A DNA stretch of 64,000 nt from an uncultured Pelagibacteraceae bacterium. Its GTDB lineage: Bacteria > Pseudomonadota > Alphaproteobacteria > Pelagibacterales > Pelagibacteraceae. Below, in pieces: positions 41,898-48,204 of the stretch. Numbering within the stretch: position 1 is the first letter of the stretch; each line of letters starts with the position of its first letter. Made by a program: the position numbers and the translations under genes. Location of the stretch: NCBI GenBank assembly GCA_902582875.1, contig CACHTV010000001.1:62001-126000 (forward strand), given 5' to 3'. The notes beneath the pieces were generated by a model. The model was not told the DNA's origin. It worked only from the letters and a program-made list of their open reading frames with translations, and did no database searches.

Positions 41898-42507
41898 TAA
41901 CTATGATTATTTTAGAATCATCTTCTGTAATACTCTCCTCTAGTTTATAGCTATAATTTGACCCTAAAGAAACATTATTAATTTCCATCTGTGCATTTTT
42001 CCCTTTTAAAACTATCAATTTATGAGGTTTTTCAACTATTTCACGTGAAATCTTCAGTATTTCATCTAATTTTTTGAAAGCTCTGCAAACTACAACATCA
42101 GCTAATATCTTATTTTCATATATGTTTTCCTCTATATCTATATTTTTAATATCTAATTTTTCCTTTATAGTTTTAAGAAAAATCCTCTTTACAGGAGATT
42201 TTTCATATAATTTCACGTGAAATCTACCTTTTTCATCATTTAATGCAATGATCAAACCAGGGAAACCAGCTCCAGATCCAAGGTCAACAATGTTATTAGT
42301 TTTAGAGTAGTCTATAAAGCTCAACAATTGAGCAGAATCAAGAATATGTCTAAACCAGATCATTTTCTCTGTTTTCTTGGAGATTAAATTATAGCTTTTA
42401 TTATATTCCAAAAGGTAATCATGGAATTTTATTAGCTTATTTATGGAAAATTCACTAAAACCTAGCTTTTTTTTAAGTATTTCAACTACTTTAATATCAT
42501 TCATCAA
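41887..42507 (-). CDS. rsmG: 16S rRNA m7G methyltransferase RsmG (GidB)
   Basis: [17 protein letters not shown]; gidA-gidB-parA-parB order. Confidence 0.94.
42038..42051. promoter_or_regulatory. parS-like site 1 (inside rsmG)
   Basis: Perfect palindrome ATTTCACGTGAAAT; parS core TTNCACGTGAAA. Confidence 0.85.
42210..42223. promoter_or_regulatory. parS-like site 2 (inside rsmG)
   Basis: Second identical palindrome ATTTCACGTGAAAT. Confidence 0.85.
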
Positions 42508-44375
42508 GCAGAAGCTCTACTTCTTGACTTCTTTATATGAGAAAGAATTAATATAGCTGCAGCTGGTGTTACTCCATCTATTCTTAAAGCCTGACCTAAT
42601 GTGTTAGGCTTGATTTTTTTAAGTTTAGACTTAATTTCGTTAGAAAGTCCACTAAAAGAATCGTAATCAATGTGATTAGGTATGACGATAGACTCATCTT
42701 TTTTGAAAGATTTAATATCATGAGCCTGACGACCTAGATATCCTAAGTAGTGCGCATCGATTTCAACCTGTCTATCTAGAGACCCATCAAACAGTGGAAT
42801 TGAAGGAAATATTTGCCTTATTTTAGCCATATTTACATTTCTTTGTCCTATAACTTCTAGAGCAGACCGTTTTACTCCATCCATAGCAATTTTAATCGAA
42901 AATTTTTTAGCCTCGTTAGGAGATAAAAAATTAGATTTTAAGGATTTAGTTAATTGAAATAATTTTTTTTCTTTATCCAAAAAAATATTTTTTCTTTTTT
43001 GTTTTACCAAATTATTTTTAATTCCTATTGGTGTTAATCTTTGGTCTGCATTATCCGCCCTGAGAGTTAATCTATATTCTGCTCTTGATGTAAACATACG
43101 ATATGGTTCTGAGACACCTTTAGTAATTAAATCATCTAACATAACACCTATATAAGAGTTAGATCTATTTAAGATAAATTCTTTTTCCTTTTTCACTTTT
43201 AAAGCCGCATTTGCTCCTGCCACTAGACCCTGAGCAGCTGCTTCTTCATATCCAGTAGTTCCATTAATTTGGCCAGCTAAAAAGAGGGATTTAATTTTCT
43301 TAGTTTCTAGTGTTATTTTAAGCTCACGTGGATCGACAAAATCATATTCTATAGCATAACCTGCCCTTTTCATCTTAACTTGCTCTAAACCCTTGATTTT
43401 GGCCAATATTTGAAGCTGAATCTCTTCGGGAAGTGAAGTAGATATACCGTTTGGATAGATAGTATTGTCCTTTAATCCCTCTGGCTCAAGAAAAATTTGA
43501 TGTTTACCTTTTTCTTTAAACTTTACAATCTTGTCTTCAATAGCAGGACAGTATCTTGGTCCTACTCCTTTTATATTACCAGAATACATTGCGCTTCTAG
43601 AAATATTTTCACTTATAATTTTGTGTACTGTGTCGTTAGTATAAGTCATTCCACACTTGATTTGTTTATTGTATAGTTTTCCAGTTAAAAAAGAAAAATA
43701 GTAAGGATCTTCATCAGCTGGCTGCATTTCTAATTCATCATAATTAATTGTATCACCATCTAATCTTGGCGGTGTGCCTGTCTTAAGTCTTCCAATCTGT
43801 AAATTAAATTTTTCCAATTGTTCACTTAATCCTGTTGAAGGTTTTTCATCATAACGACCAGCCGGTGTCTGTTTTTCACCAATATGAATTAATCCATTTA
43901 AAAATGTTCCTGTTGTAAGAACCAGTTCTTTACATCTTACTTCTTTTCCACTTTGACAAATAATTCCAACGATTTTATTTTTATTAAATAAAAATTTTAT
44001 AACTGGGTCCGATATGACCTGTAAATTTTTGTAATTAATCAGAATTTTCTGCATATGCTCTTTATAAAGAGATCTATCTGATTGTGTTCTGGGACCTTGT
44101 ACTGCTGGTCCTCTGCTTCGATTTAATAATCTGAATTGAATACCTGATTTGTCAGCTACAATACCCATAACGCCATCTAAAGCATCGATTTCTCTAACTA
44201 GGTGACCTTTTCCAAGTCCCCCAATAGCTGGATTGCAGGACATCTCTCCAATTGTCTCTTTTTTATGGGTAAAAAGTGCAGTATTCACACCAATTCTGGC
44301 AGATGCAGCAGCAGCCTCACACCCAGCATGCCCACCACCTATTACAACTACATCGTAGCTCATTTCTTTAGTCAT
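42504..44375 (-). CDS. mnmG: tRNA uridine 5-carboxymethylaminomethyl modification enzyme MnmG
   Basis: [43 protein letters not shown]. Confidence 0.98.
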
Positions 44376-44425
44376 TTTGTGAATGTATCTGTCTAAATTG
44401 ATTTTACAAGAAGTATTTTTGATAA

Positions 44426-44446
44426 TGGGGGTCTTGGCAACCCCCA
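44426..44446 (-). terminator. GC-rich hairpin just after the GIY-YIG gene
   Basis: TGGGGGT-CTTGGCA-ACCCCCA, 7-bp stem; 6 nt beyond stop codon; weak U tract. Confidence 0.6.
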
Positions 44447-44452
44447 GTTATT

Positions 44453-45178
44453 TTAGTTCTCTCTTCCCATAACACGATTATGAGGAGGTAGAAGACCATT
44501 TTCATCTATAAACTTTTTAAGATGATATGCTTCCCATTTTTTTCTTTCCTCATCACTTACATTGGATAAAACAGAATATTCTACAGTGTCAAATTTTATT
44601 TCATCATTTTTTAAATGCTGATTAATTCTCCTGTTTATATTATTCGTTTCTCCGATGTATTGAATGTCACCATTATACAAAAGTCTATAAATACCTTTTC
44701 CATCAATAAGATTTTTTAAATCTCTGTTACGATATTCAAAACAAGGTATCAAAGGTATCTTCCACATTTGGTGTTTTTCATCCCTAATCAAAAAAATACG
44801 TCTTTGTTGTCTTGGCTTTTTCAATAGACTAACTATCTTCGGTATCTGCTTTGCAATTGTTCCGAAGCAACTAATAGAAAAATTAGTTTTCCTATCATTC
44901 ACTCTAATTGGACAATTTGCATCTGAAGCGGGATCGTTATTAGGTGACAGATAAAGCGCTAATGCTTCTTCTGGTTCTATTCCTTCTTCGATTACAATTG
45001 CACAATGCTTATACTTATCAAAGCCTAAGGGCTTAAAAGCACTTGAGCTAAAACTAATATAAGAGTGGTTTAAGAAAACAGATGGATTTTCCATCAGATA
45101 ATGTGAAGTTCTCTTTAACGGTCTAAACTTCAATTTTCTGTCTTTCTCTTTAACAACTGAGAGATAATTGTTTTGCAT
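44453..45178 (-). CDS. GIY-YIG domain protein with uncharacterised N-terminal domain (start chosen at MQNNYL, ORF track 45199)
   Basis: C-terminus GIYRLLYNGDIQYIGETNNINRRINQHLKN is GIY-YIG; SD AAGGAGG at 45185-45191 lies 6 nt upstream of ATG 45178. Confidence 0.8.
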   Translation of the reverse strand: MQNNYLSVVKEKDRKLKFRPLKRTSHYLMENPSVFLNHSYISFSSSAFKPLGFDKYKHCAIVIEEGIEPEEALALYLSPNNDPASDANCPIRVNDRKTNFSISCFGTIAKQIPKIVSLLKKPRQQRRIFLIRDEKHQMWKIPLIPCFEYRNRDLKNLIDGKGIYRLLYNGDIQYIGETNNINRRINQHLKNDEIKFDTVEYSVLSNVSDEERKKWEAYHLKKFIDENGLLPPHNRVMGREN

Positions 45179-45509
45179 TTCTAACCTCCTTTCTTTCATT
45201 TACTAGTGCTCTAAAGGTAACTGATACTTTTGGTGTTTTAGAGTCACCACGAAGTTCAACCATTGGTAAAACTTCAATGTTGCAGTCAGTAAATTCATTA
45301 ACTGACCCAATCTCTTTTATTATTTCTTTTTCGACAAATTTATCGAATAAGCATTGTTGCTCGAAGCGATAATCATCATCTTTAACTAAGCTCATGTCTG
45401 TTACTAGTATTCTAGTAATTAATAGAGCTCCTTTTCCTTTCTTGTTTACAGTGTCAACTACATTTCCTACTTGAGTAATAGACACACCTTTCTTGTTACC
45501 ATTATTCAT
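45150..45509 (-). CDS. hypothetical protein, 119 aa
   Basis: ATG with SD AGGAG close upstream; overlaps GIY-YIG gene by 29 nt; no family recognised. Confidence 0.7.
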   Translation of the reverse strand: MNNGNKKGVSITQVGNVVDTVNKKGKGALLITRILVTDMSLVKDDDYRFEQQCLFDKFVEKEIIKEIGSVNEFTDCNIEVLPMVELRGDSKTPKVSVTFRALVNERKEVRNAKQLSLSC

Positions 45510-45623
45510 GGTTTCTCCTTTTTTTTTGGGGGCTTGTTTGTTTAAAGATTGTGGTATAAAAAATACCTGGATATCAATCTATTCTGCTTGGTGCCCCCAG
45601 GGTACCAGGCTGAATTTTAAAAA

Positions 45624-46733
45624 TCATTTACCTCTTATTCTATCAATTTCCATCTGAACATATTGATCTTCAGCTTCTTCCATTACTTCAGCGTAAGTTT
45701 TACCTGTTCTTTCCATGTATTCATCCATTCCAGGATCTTCTCCTGGATTATAATCCCACTTACTATAATCTATACCGGATGCATGCTCAGCAGTAATTGA
45801 TACTTTGTTTTTATCTATTTTATCGTTGTATTGATAAGTGTCAGAAAGAGCAGCGTCTAAGTATCGTTCTGCATCCCACTCATACCCTGATGTGCTAAAT
45901 TTTAAATCATCTAATATGCTTTGTAATTTAGGAATACTCCAATAGTTTTCGTAGTTAAATAGTAAAGAGGATTTGAAAGGTTTGTAAAATGAGAAAATAG
46001 CATAATCTTTCTTTGTTATGCCTGCTTCCCATGATCCTGTTGTAATCATTTGGTTCTCATAAGCTGGGTGTCGCTCTAACTTTTCTGAACCAGACATTAT
46101 AATCGGTGCTATTGTGTTTAGCTGGAAATTACCTGCATATAGATAAATGCCCAATTTTTCTAACTCTTTGATATTTTGCTCAAAGCCAGAAACGCTATTA
46201 AGTGCTTCTATTTCTTTATCTAAAGCAAAATAACTTTCTGTCTCACTTTTTTTCAAAACCGATTTCGACTCTTTATGAACGCTGTGAATATCCCGTAAAA
46301 TATCCGTTACAATTTTTGCTTCTTTAGATTTTGGAGGTAAAGAAACATTGTAAAAGATTTTTCTAAATGTTGATCTTTTTATAATTTCAGTAAGTTTTTC
46401 TTCAGACGCGAGGCTATAGAGATAGCAACTTTCAAAAATGCCTGACCGAACTGTTTTATTTTTTTTATTATTAATAGATTTTGTTTTAGTTATATCTTCT
46501 AATGAAACTGGCTTGTTATAAGTTGTATATTTTTTTAAATATTGATCAAAAAATTGTGCAACTGAGGTCAAATATTTTAGACTAACTGACTCGCCTTTTT
46601 CAGCACGTTGATAATTTCTAAGACTTGTTTTTAATCTAAATTCTTTAAAAGCAAAAGGTATAGATGCTTGTTTCAATTTAGCTGCCCGTCTTAATTCTTT
46701 TATTTTTTGTTTATCTCCTTTAATCTCTTTCAT
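45624..46733 (-). CDS. HTH (XRE-like)-containing hypothetical protein (start chosen at MKEIKG; ORF track start at 46775 is a TTG)
   Basis: N-terminal KIKELRRAAKLKQASIPFAFKEFRLKTSLRNYQRAEKGESVSLKYLTSVAQFF reads as XRE-type HTH; long unknown C-terminus. Confidence 0.65.
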   Translation of the reverse strand: MKEIKGDKQKIKELRRAAKLKQASIPFAFKEFRLKTSLRNYQRAEKGESVSLKYLTSVAQFFDQYLKKYTTYNKPVSLEDITKTKSINNKKNKTVRSGIFESCYLYSLASEEKLTEIIKRSTFRKIFYNVSLPPKSKEAKIVTDILRDIHSVHKESKSVLKKSETESYFALDKEIEALNSVSGFEQNIKELEKLGIYLYAGNFQLNTIAPIIMSGSEKLERHPAYENQMITTGSWEAGITKKDYAIFSFYKPFKSSLLFNYENYWSIPKLQSILDDLKFSTSGYEWDAERYLDAALSDTYQYNDKIDKNKVSITAEHASGIDYSKWDYNPGEDPGMDEYMERTGKTYAEVMEEAEDQYVQMEIDRIRGK

Positions 46734-46770
46734 GGTTAGAGATATAATGTATATTTTATGTAATGCAACC

Positions 46771-46798
46771 GCCAAAATAGTGACATTTTACTTTTGGC
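46771..46798. promoter_or_regulatory. inverted repeat upstream of the HTH gene, candidate operator
   Basis: GCCAAAA-N14-TTTTGGC; further TTTGGCAT copy at 46841-46848. Confidence 0.4.
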
Positions 46799-46875
46799 AT
46801 TATTGACTTAATTATGTTGTTTTTTATTGTTTTTTTGATATTTGGCATATTTATTCAAAAAAAAAGGCTAAATTG

Positions 46876-48204
46876 TCACTTTCCTATACAAAAGTCCTTA
46901 AAAATAGAGCCTAAAATCTCCTCAACATCGACTTTTCCTACAATACTTCCAAGATGTCTAGTGGCCATTCGTAAATCTTCAGCCGCAAGCTCAATATCTT
47001 TGTTTTGATCTTTTTTAAGAAACTTATCTATCTCTTCTAAACAATGGTTTAGCTTAACACGGTGTCTTTCTCTTGTAATTAAAACATTATTGCTAGAGAT
47101 AAATTTTTTGCTTAATTTTTCTTTTAATTTTTTAATAACTTGATCGATATTTCTGTTATCTTTTACAGAAACTAAAATCGTATCTGCATCAAATTTATGA
47201 TTTTCTTTATTTTTAATATCTGATTTATTTAAAAGTACTATTGAGTCTTTATTTATTAATCTCCTAACTTTATCGTTTATTTTAGATGATGAATTATCAA
47301 TCATTACAATATTAAGATCGGCTTCTTTTGATTTACCTAAAGCTAAAGAAATACCTTTTTTTTCTATTTCATTTTTAGCCTCTCTTATGCCTGCTGTATC
47401 AGCTAAAATTACTGGATATCCATCTATATTAAGATAGGTCTCGATAACATCTCTCGTAGTTCCTTCTTCTTCTGAAACTATCGCTACTTCTCTTTTTGAA
47501 AGTAAATTTAATAAAGATGATTTGCCTGCGTTTACCTCGCCAATGATTGAAACATGAAATCCGTCTCTTATTTTTTCTCCGATTTTATTATCCTCTATTA
47601 TCTTATGAATATCTTTATGAATGTCTTTAATAGAGTTTTGTACTTCCTTCAAAACTTTTTCTGGTAAATCATCTTCTGCAAAATCTATTTTGGCCTCTAT
47701 ATAAGATAATGATTTTAAAAGTTTCTCTCTCAAATCATTATAATAATTTGAAGCATTACCTTGAACTAATTTAACAGCTTGGTCTCTCTGAAGCTCTGTT
47801 TCTGCGTGTATTAAATCACCAATACTTTCAGCTTTTAAAAGATCAATTTTATCATTTTGAAAAGCTACCTTTGTAAATTCACCTGGCTCGGCTAATCTAC
47901 AATTATCTTGTTCTGATAATGCTTTTAATAATGCGTTGATGACAGCATTACTTCCATGAACTTGGAATTCGGCTAAATCATCTCCTGTATAACTATTAGG
48001 CCCAGGAAACCACAATAATAGAGCTTCTGGATCTATAACTTTATCATTTTTAGGATCATAGAATGTGCAATAATTTACCTCATTAGAATTGATTTCTTTT
48101 AATTTAGACAAATTCTTACAAACTTTAAGAGTATCTTTGCCTGAAATTCTAACGATGGCTATTCCTGACGGACCTTTGCCTGATGAAAGAGCATAAATAT
48201 TCAT
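46876..48204 (-). CDS. mnmE: tRNA modification GTPase MnmE (TrmE)
   Basis: GEVNAGKSSLLN, C-terminal FCIGK. Confidence 0.97.
   Translation of the reverse strand: MNIYALSSGKGPSGIAIVRISGKDTLKVCKNLSKLKEINSNEVNYCTFYDPKNDKVIDPEALLLWFPGPNSYTGDDLAEFQVHGSNAVINALLKALSEQDNCRLAEPGEFTKVAFQNDKIDLLKAESIGDLIHAETELQRDQAVKLVQGNASNYYNDLREKLLKSLSYIEAKIDFAEDDLPEKVLKEVQNSIKDIHKDIHKIIEDNKIGEKIRDGFHVSIIGEVNAGKSSLLNLLSKREVAIVSEEEGTTRDVIETYLNIDGYPVILADTAGIREAKNEIEKKGISLALGKSKEADLNIVMIDNSSSKINDKVRRLINKDSIVLLNKSDIKNKENHKFDADTILVSVKDNRNIDQVIKKLKEKLSKKFISSNNVLITRERHRVKLNHCLEEIDKFLKKDQNKDIELAAEDLRMATRHLGSIVGKVDVEEILGSIFKDFCIGK

Follow-up and report, generated by a model that had tools for sequence, protein, structure and literature searches.

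A compact cassette with a predicted GIY-YIG nuclease, an exchangeable putative regulator, and a candidate pseudoknot RNA at conserved gene junctions in Pelagibacteraceae

INTRODUCTION

In HEARO/OMEGA systems, a structured RNA adjoins the nuclease gene of a mobile element, and such RNAs proved to be effectors. In type III toxin-antitoxin systems (ToxIN/AbiQ), a pseudoknot RNA made of tandem repeats lies ahead of a small protein gene, and the toxin ToxN is an endoribonuclease. Free-standing homing genes are, to our knowledge, single genes that lack an XRE-type partner. For the stand-alone homing genes of phages, RNA structure reduces translation initiation, as shown for mobE and implicated for segB (PMC3014915), and homing endonuclease genes are found close to essential genes and also where regions of genetic exchange meet their boundaries (PMC10448857).

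Here, we analyze a 64,000-nucleotide stretch of DNA from an uncultured Pelagibacteraceae bacterium (referred to as the window), in which three minus-strand genes, A, B, and C, occupy positions 44376-46875 between mnmE (46876-48204) and mnmG (42504-44375), in agreement with the positions originally predicted for three co-directional genes. SAR11 bacteria have extremely streamlined genomes, and in the literature searched no account of such a compact recurring element was found. In a host group that is among the most abundant ocean bacteria, the combination of an intact nuclease with an exchanged regulator and a new structured RNA offers a testable mobile or defense system, and the candidate RNA family is one to look for. 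The features are as follows, all on the minus strand.

44420..46877: whole cassette, 2,458 bp, inserted in the mnmE stop codon
46734..46877: A promoter region, carrying repeats that resemble operators
45624..46733: gene A, 369 amino acids, with a weakly matching N-terminal XRE-type helix-turn-helix (HTH) at about residues 1-70
45510..45623: predicted structured RNA in the A-B gap, with stem P1, central hairpin P2, and a pseudoknot
~45614-45604 with 45592-45582: P1, whose loop pairs just before the Shine-Dalgarno (SD) sequence of B
45599-45593 (TGGGGGC) with 45533-45527 (GCCCCCA): pseudoknot
45518-45515: SD of B, behind the pseudoknot
45150..45509: gene B, 119 amino acids, SD AAGGAG
44453..45178: gene C, 241 amino acids, with an N-terminal domain of ~150 amino acids without known family, followed by GIY-YIG
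44504-44698: GIY-YIG nuclease domain of C (PF01541)
44426..44446: GC-rich hairpin TGGGGGT-TGCCAAG-ACCCCCA, directly behind C and without a T run

The cassette resembles the free-standing homing genes of phages (the GIY-YIG seg genes of T4 and the HNH gene mobE) in its intact catalytic residues, its place between conserved genes, the lack of a target duplication, the RNA structure at a translation start, and the exchange of neighboring genes. It differs from them in being a three-gene operon with a putative XRE-type regulator, in having a pseudoknot instead of a hairpin, and in residing in bacterial chromosomes, and we detected no homology to them beyond the nuclease domain. As in HEARO/OMEGA, a mobile element carries a conserved structured RNA next to its nuclease gene, but the nuclease is GIY-YIG and not RuvC/HNH, the RNA is a leader of B, and no guide-like segment was recognized in it. 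As in ToxIN/AbiQ, a pseudoknot RNA precedes a small protein gene; however, the RNA is a single unit, there is no ToxN-like match, and the gene that follows encodes a DNA nuclease. The locus was not assigned to type III toxin-antitoxin systems, given this single RNA unit and the lack of a family match for A or B. Finally, A may be similar to the XRE regulators of integrative elements and prophages (such as the ICEBs1 regulator, 7t8i) in its HTH (with a weak E value), its A-specific upstream repeats, and its variable specificity, whereas its large second domain without known fold and the absence of recognized integrase or phage genes from the cassette set it apart.

RESULTS AND DISCUSSION

A precise insertion in the mnmE stop codon

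When the window was compared by blastn with a relative lacking the three genes (G267, locus L191), the aligned blocks stopped at 44419 and restarted at 46878, and both block ends fell on adjacent bases (6096/6095) of the relative. Given that the blocks adjoin there, the insert is exactly 44420-46877. The insertion point is inside the mnmE stop codon (AAGT^AAAATAC; context of the empty junction, GGAAAGT^AAAATACTTCTTGTA), and no target-site duplication was seen at the cassette edges in this comparison. Among the 21 genomes of the genus with a readable junction, the window itself not counted, 20 have an empty one with a gap of 42 to 65 bp, the occupied one being G195. A defined target is interrupted without duplication and relatives carry the empty allele, which is the configuration expected for a homing endonuclease. 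The 20 empty junctions rule out a core gene, the outcome that the original prediction had named as speaking against acquisition, and a transposon is ruled out by the lack of both a target duplication and a recognized recombinase. At this junction, nearly all relatives lack the predicted acquired and regulated module, and the cassette is genuine and horizontally acquired.

The three genes deviate mildly from their neighbors in GC3 and codon use. Relative to 64 neighbor genes, the GC3 z-scores were +2.2 (C), +1.5 (B), and +1.2 (A), and those of the codon-usage log likelihood were −2.3, −1.8, and −1.2, respectively, so that the less AT-biased text noted before is real but only slightly so. The gap of 114 bp between A and B is unusual considering that the median gene gap in the window is −1 bp. 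Regarding gene starts, C most likely starts at ATG 45178, with its SD AAAGGAGG inside B and a B/C overlap of 29 nt, while A starts at ATG 46733 and does not need the TTG at 46775 listed previously. The strong SDs that had been claimed are present for B (AAGGAG) and C, but A has no clear SD.

The insert holds three genes only, none recognized as an integrase or structural gene. Viral contigs yielded no relative of C, in scans resting on short peptide patterns, and no relative of A or C was found in phage records, nor of C in plasmids. These results do not support the suggested phage remnant, nor the remnant of a phage satellite.

Recurrence at conserved junctions

C is present in 8 of 169 genomes of the genus and in 17/346 genomes of the family, i.e., about 5%, frequencies that are rough because many assemblies are incomplete. 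A scan of genome contigs returned nine loci, all from Pelagibacteraceae; weak matches of C in a second genus (E values of 1e-3 to 1e-5, in open frames of ~620 amino acids) were taken as UvrC and excluded. Relatives of the cassette lie at four conserved junctions, mnmE-mnmG, recA-tolC, fabI-pnp, and argG, and also singly elsewhere (the names recA, tolC, fabI, pnp, and argG are our reading of the protein sequences). The recurrence of the trio as a unit at other sites supports the earlier idea of a single system.

mnmE-mnmG: the window, G195, G303, G191, G033, G346
recA upstream region, next to a tolC-like gene: G296, G230, G680, G188, G164, E06, G592 (L046 denotes the G680 genome and L047 the G592 genome)
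Between fabI and a pnp-like gene: G618, G662, D23, and G262, in which only C occurs
argG neighborhood: G336, G695, G111, G381 (argG itself outside the stretch covered), G357, G461

Without the cassette, the tolC-recA junction measures 99 to 131 bp. The gap between fabI and the pnp-like gene (L153-L182) is a hypervariable hotspot that ranges from 13 bp to >1.5 kb and contains many unrelated small inserts. At this site, G618 and G662 have repeated CACTATTAG units ahead of A, and G262 (L041 5324-6921) has a second, partial fabI copy (128 amino acids) immediately before C, its only cassette gene, which looks as though the 3' part of fabI had been duplicated by the insertion. The sRNA family SAR11_0636 (RF01827) is found a few kilobases from the recA-site cassette in L031, L032, L033, and L035. 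A motif, A[AG]GTGCCACTTnTAGC, is common to the left ends of the cassettes of G346, G033, G296, and G188 (loci L083, L036, L031, and L033), which lie at two different sites; it is a candidate motif spotted by eye.

Conserved flanks could in principle have spread a neutral accessory island by ordinary homologous recombination, the nuclease and regulator having a housekeeping use. Such flanks do recombine, and the unrelated inserts at fabI-pnp fit this picture, but some mechanism must have brought the cassette, with its exact edges, to several nonhomologous sites in the first place, and a covarying RNA together with conserved nuclease residues implies selection on function, so that we consider a neutral island quite improbable.

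Genes B and C and the right-end hairpin

C matches PF01541 with an E value of 3.9e-8 and 33.9 bits (cutoff, 22.6), and an alignment of 14 relatives shows no variation at its residues Y164, I175, G176, R184, E216, and N234. By profile and residue conservation, C is a member of the GIY-YIG nuclease superfamily with the catalytic Tyr, Arg, Glu, and Asn intact. Of the GC-rich hairpins pointed out in the original prediction, the one behind C is exceptional, as a perfect hairpin at this position occurs in 18/24 copies versus 3/162 host genes. Its sequence varies between copies and a T run is mostly lacking, so that it may either mark the cassette end or serve as a terminator of an unusual kind. Several recA-site copies have a small extra open frame of 67 to 89 amino acids behind C (e.g., L032 6129-6398 and L051 5971-6174).

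B matched no recognizable family, as had been stated before: there was no match in Pfam, NCBIfam, or PADLOC and no significant one in PHROGs. B was aligned in 15 rows, and its AlphaFold2 model shows a beta-beta-alpha-beta-beta arrangement (pLDDT 76.4), for which no significant fold match was found in the PDB.

Gene A and its upstream repeats

Profile searches with A returned weak matches to XRE regulators (9sf2, E value of 0.024; ICEBs1 regulator 7t8i, 0.049), and HTH_3 and HTH_19 were detected in a few A members only, with best E values of 0.0013 and 0.011, respectively. The AlphaFold2 model (pLDDT 77.6) has a helix pattern that agrees with an XRE-type HTH, while a structure search revealed no significant fold match in the PDB; likewise, Pfam and PADLOC gave no family for A, and NCBIfam and PHROGs no significant match. 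The C-terminal part forms an alpha/beta domain without known fold and ends in an acidic tail with the residues RGK. This tail is common to otherwise divergent A proteins (window 45624-45760, L031, L083, and L048) and may contact a partner that stays constant.

Upstream of A, the window contains an inverted repeat, GCCAAAA (46771-46777)/TTTTGGC (46792-46798), with a further half-site near 46842, and the G195 copy has the palindrome GTGACAATTATAAATTGTCAC in the same region. The repeats vary with the A variant, although in a shuffle test they were individually significant in some copies only (e.g., L051 and G191). In two fabI-site copies, they take in host-side sequence preceding the cassette. 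These features are consistent with putative A-specific operators and suggest autoregulation of A.

A candidate pseudoknot RNA ahead of B

The A-B gap, absent from the original prediction as a structured RNA, is 114 nt long in the window and ~105 to 146 nt in the copies at mnmE, recA, and fabI, and in most copies a few nucleotides separate the end of the pseudoknot strand from the SD of B that follows. The paired strands change together, occurring as CCTGGGG/CCCCAGG, GCTGGG/CCCAGC, GCAGGG/CCCTGC, GCGAGGG/CCCTCGC, CCGTTGC/GCAACGG, CCTGAGGGC/GCCCTCAGG, and TGTTGAGT/ACTCAACA. Cognate strands reached a pairing score of 19.3 versus 13.1 for noncognate ones, with 0/2,000 permutations as high, in a test that is optimistic because the copies are related. 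In alignment A7, 11 pairs had changes on both sides compared to 4.4 in shuffles (0/500). A model (R1) that was trained on ten copies and leaves out the pseudoknot recovered six held-out copies at the expected place, with E values between 7e-8 and 0.04, and gave one strong match, i.e., one copy, in the window's own genome. It does not find the argG-site copies, which may carry a different leader. The A-B gap is predicted to encode a pseudoknot RNA with covarying strands, and no Rfam 15 covariance model matched it at gathering score.

The RNA core is common to copies from three sites. The RNA can differ although B and C are 96 to 98% identical (G164 versus E06), and it stays alike although B is down to 41% (window versus G195), which indicates that it does not tightly coevolve with B or C. 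An RNA that evolves as the partner of B or of A was rejected, since in the comparisons of copy pairs neither holds throughout.

A function of this RNA in trans, as a guide, an antitoxin, or a scaffold for B or C, and not just as a leader, would fit the strong covariation, the shared core, and the effector RNAs of HEARO/OMEGA. We nevertheless judge it unlikely, because nearly all copies have it directly ahead of the SD of B, which points to control in cis, and because the RNA shows no tight coevolution with B or C and is single copy in the genome. We attach an equally small chance to an undescribed class of conflict or homing element in which the pseudoknot RNA would be part of, or direct, the GIY-YIG nuclease and the swappable DNA-binding protein would confer identity.

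Exchange of A and linkage of B and C to the insertion site

Comparison of copies revealed a wholesale exchange of A, which the original prediction had not included, just as it lacked the several insertion sites. C is 100% identical and A 23% in G296/G230; C is 98%, B 96%, and A 21% in G164/E06; C is 92% and B 90%, with no match of A, in G618/G662; C is 99%, B 97%, and A 21% in G336/G695; C is 99%, with no match of A, in G381/G357; and C is 85% and A 20% in G195/G191. The window and G195 display the opposite pattern (A 80%, B 41%, and C 53%). DNA alignments of the pairs have sharp edges, where similarity ends at the A-side flank and restarts behind A, at the start of B, or near that of C. The nearest relative is located at the same site for 20/23 copies of C and 20/22 of B but for only 11/21 of A, and the site label changes 7 times on the C tree versus 15.8 times after shuffling (0/200 as low). 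From these identities, counts, and the tree, we infer that a site mostly keeps its B and C, whereas A passes from one element to another. That A determines the site was rejected, as its relatives cross sites and unrelated A variants share one site.

A nuclease lineage that tracks the insertion site is what a homing endonuclease would produce, although adjacency to the flank could also cause the linkage. We tentatively favor a homing-type or conflict element, in which a small mobile SAR11 cassette with a site-linked nuclease and a swappable regulator would enter intergenic seams beside conserved genes. Mobility would most likely come from C, acting as a homing-type nuclease on the allele that lacks the cassette, and repair of the cut allele by recombination would copy the cassette in. 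A would be a DNA-binding regulator that acts on the operators upstream of its own gene and so controls the operon. Behind A, the pseudoknot would fold beside the SD of B and restrain translation of B and of C, coupled to it by the overlap, so that little nuclease would be made. Cassettes exchange A as a module, which would be expected if the specificity of A determined which of the incoming cassettes are repressed.

In favor of homing are the clean insertion in the mnmE stop codon without duplication, the four conserved junctions, the sparse distribution, the clustering of C by site, and the replacement of A while C remains at 92 to 100% and, in three pairs, B at 90 to 97%. The RNA strand near the SD of B is comparable to the RNA structures of mobE and segB (PMC3014915), and homing genes lie close to essential genes and at exchange boundaries (PMC10448857). 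Against it, C forms two well-separated clades at mnmE, D23 (fabI) groups with the recA copies, and the N-terminal domain of C belongs to no known DNA-binding family; an XRE-type partner is also foreign to the single free-standing homing genes that we know of.

The main rival is anti-phage defense, since an exchangeable regulator fits a repressor-immunity group and a phage sensor equally. In that case, A would sense an infection signal and derepress the operon, B and C would cleave DNA and thereby kill either the phage or its host cell, and A would be swapped because phages differ. We regard this as the less probable explanation, if a serious one. A regulator- or sensor-like gene exchanged wholesale beside a conserved nuclease and a sparse, hotspot-like distribution would suit it, as would the weak PADLOC matches in the GIY-YIG stretch of C. 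However, PADLOC-DB 2.0.0 identified no known defense system: A and B had no match, and the weak matches of C (UzuA, 9.9e-5; PDC-S14, 2.1e-4) span only the generic GIY-YIG stretch, so that the defense or anti-mobile-element role proposed originally stays putative. Moreover, no defense gene was recognized among the neighbor genes listed around the copies, and defense alone leaves the precise insertion at several sites with a site-linked C unexplained.

Among the copies at the recA site, gene A of G188 (L033 256-1394) is split into two open frames, perhaps marking a decaying copy.
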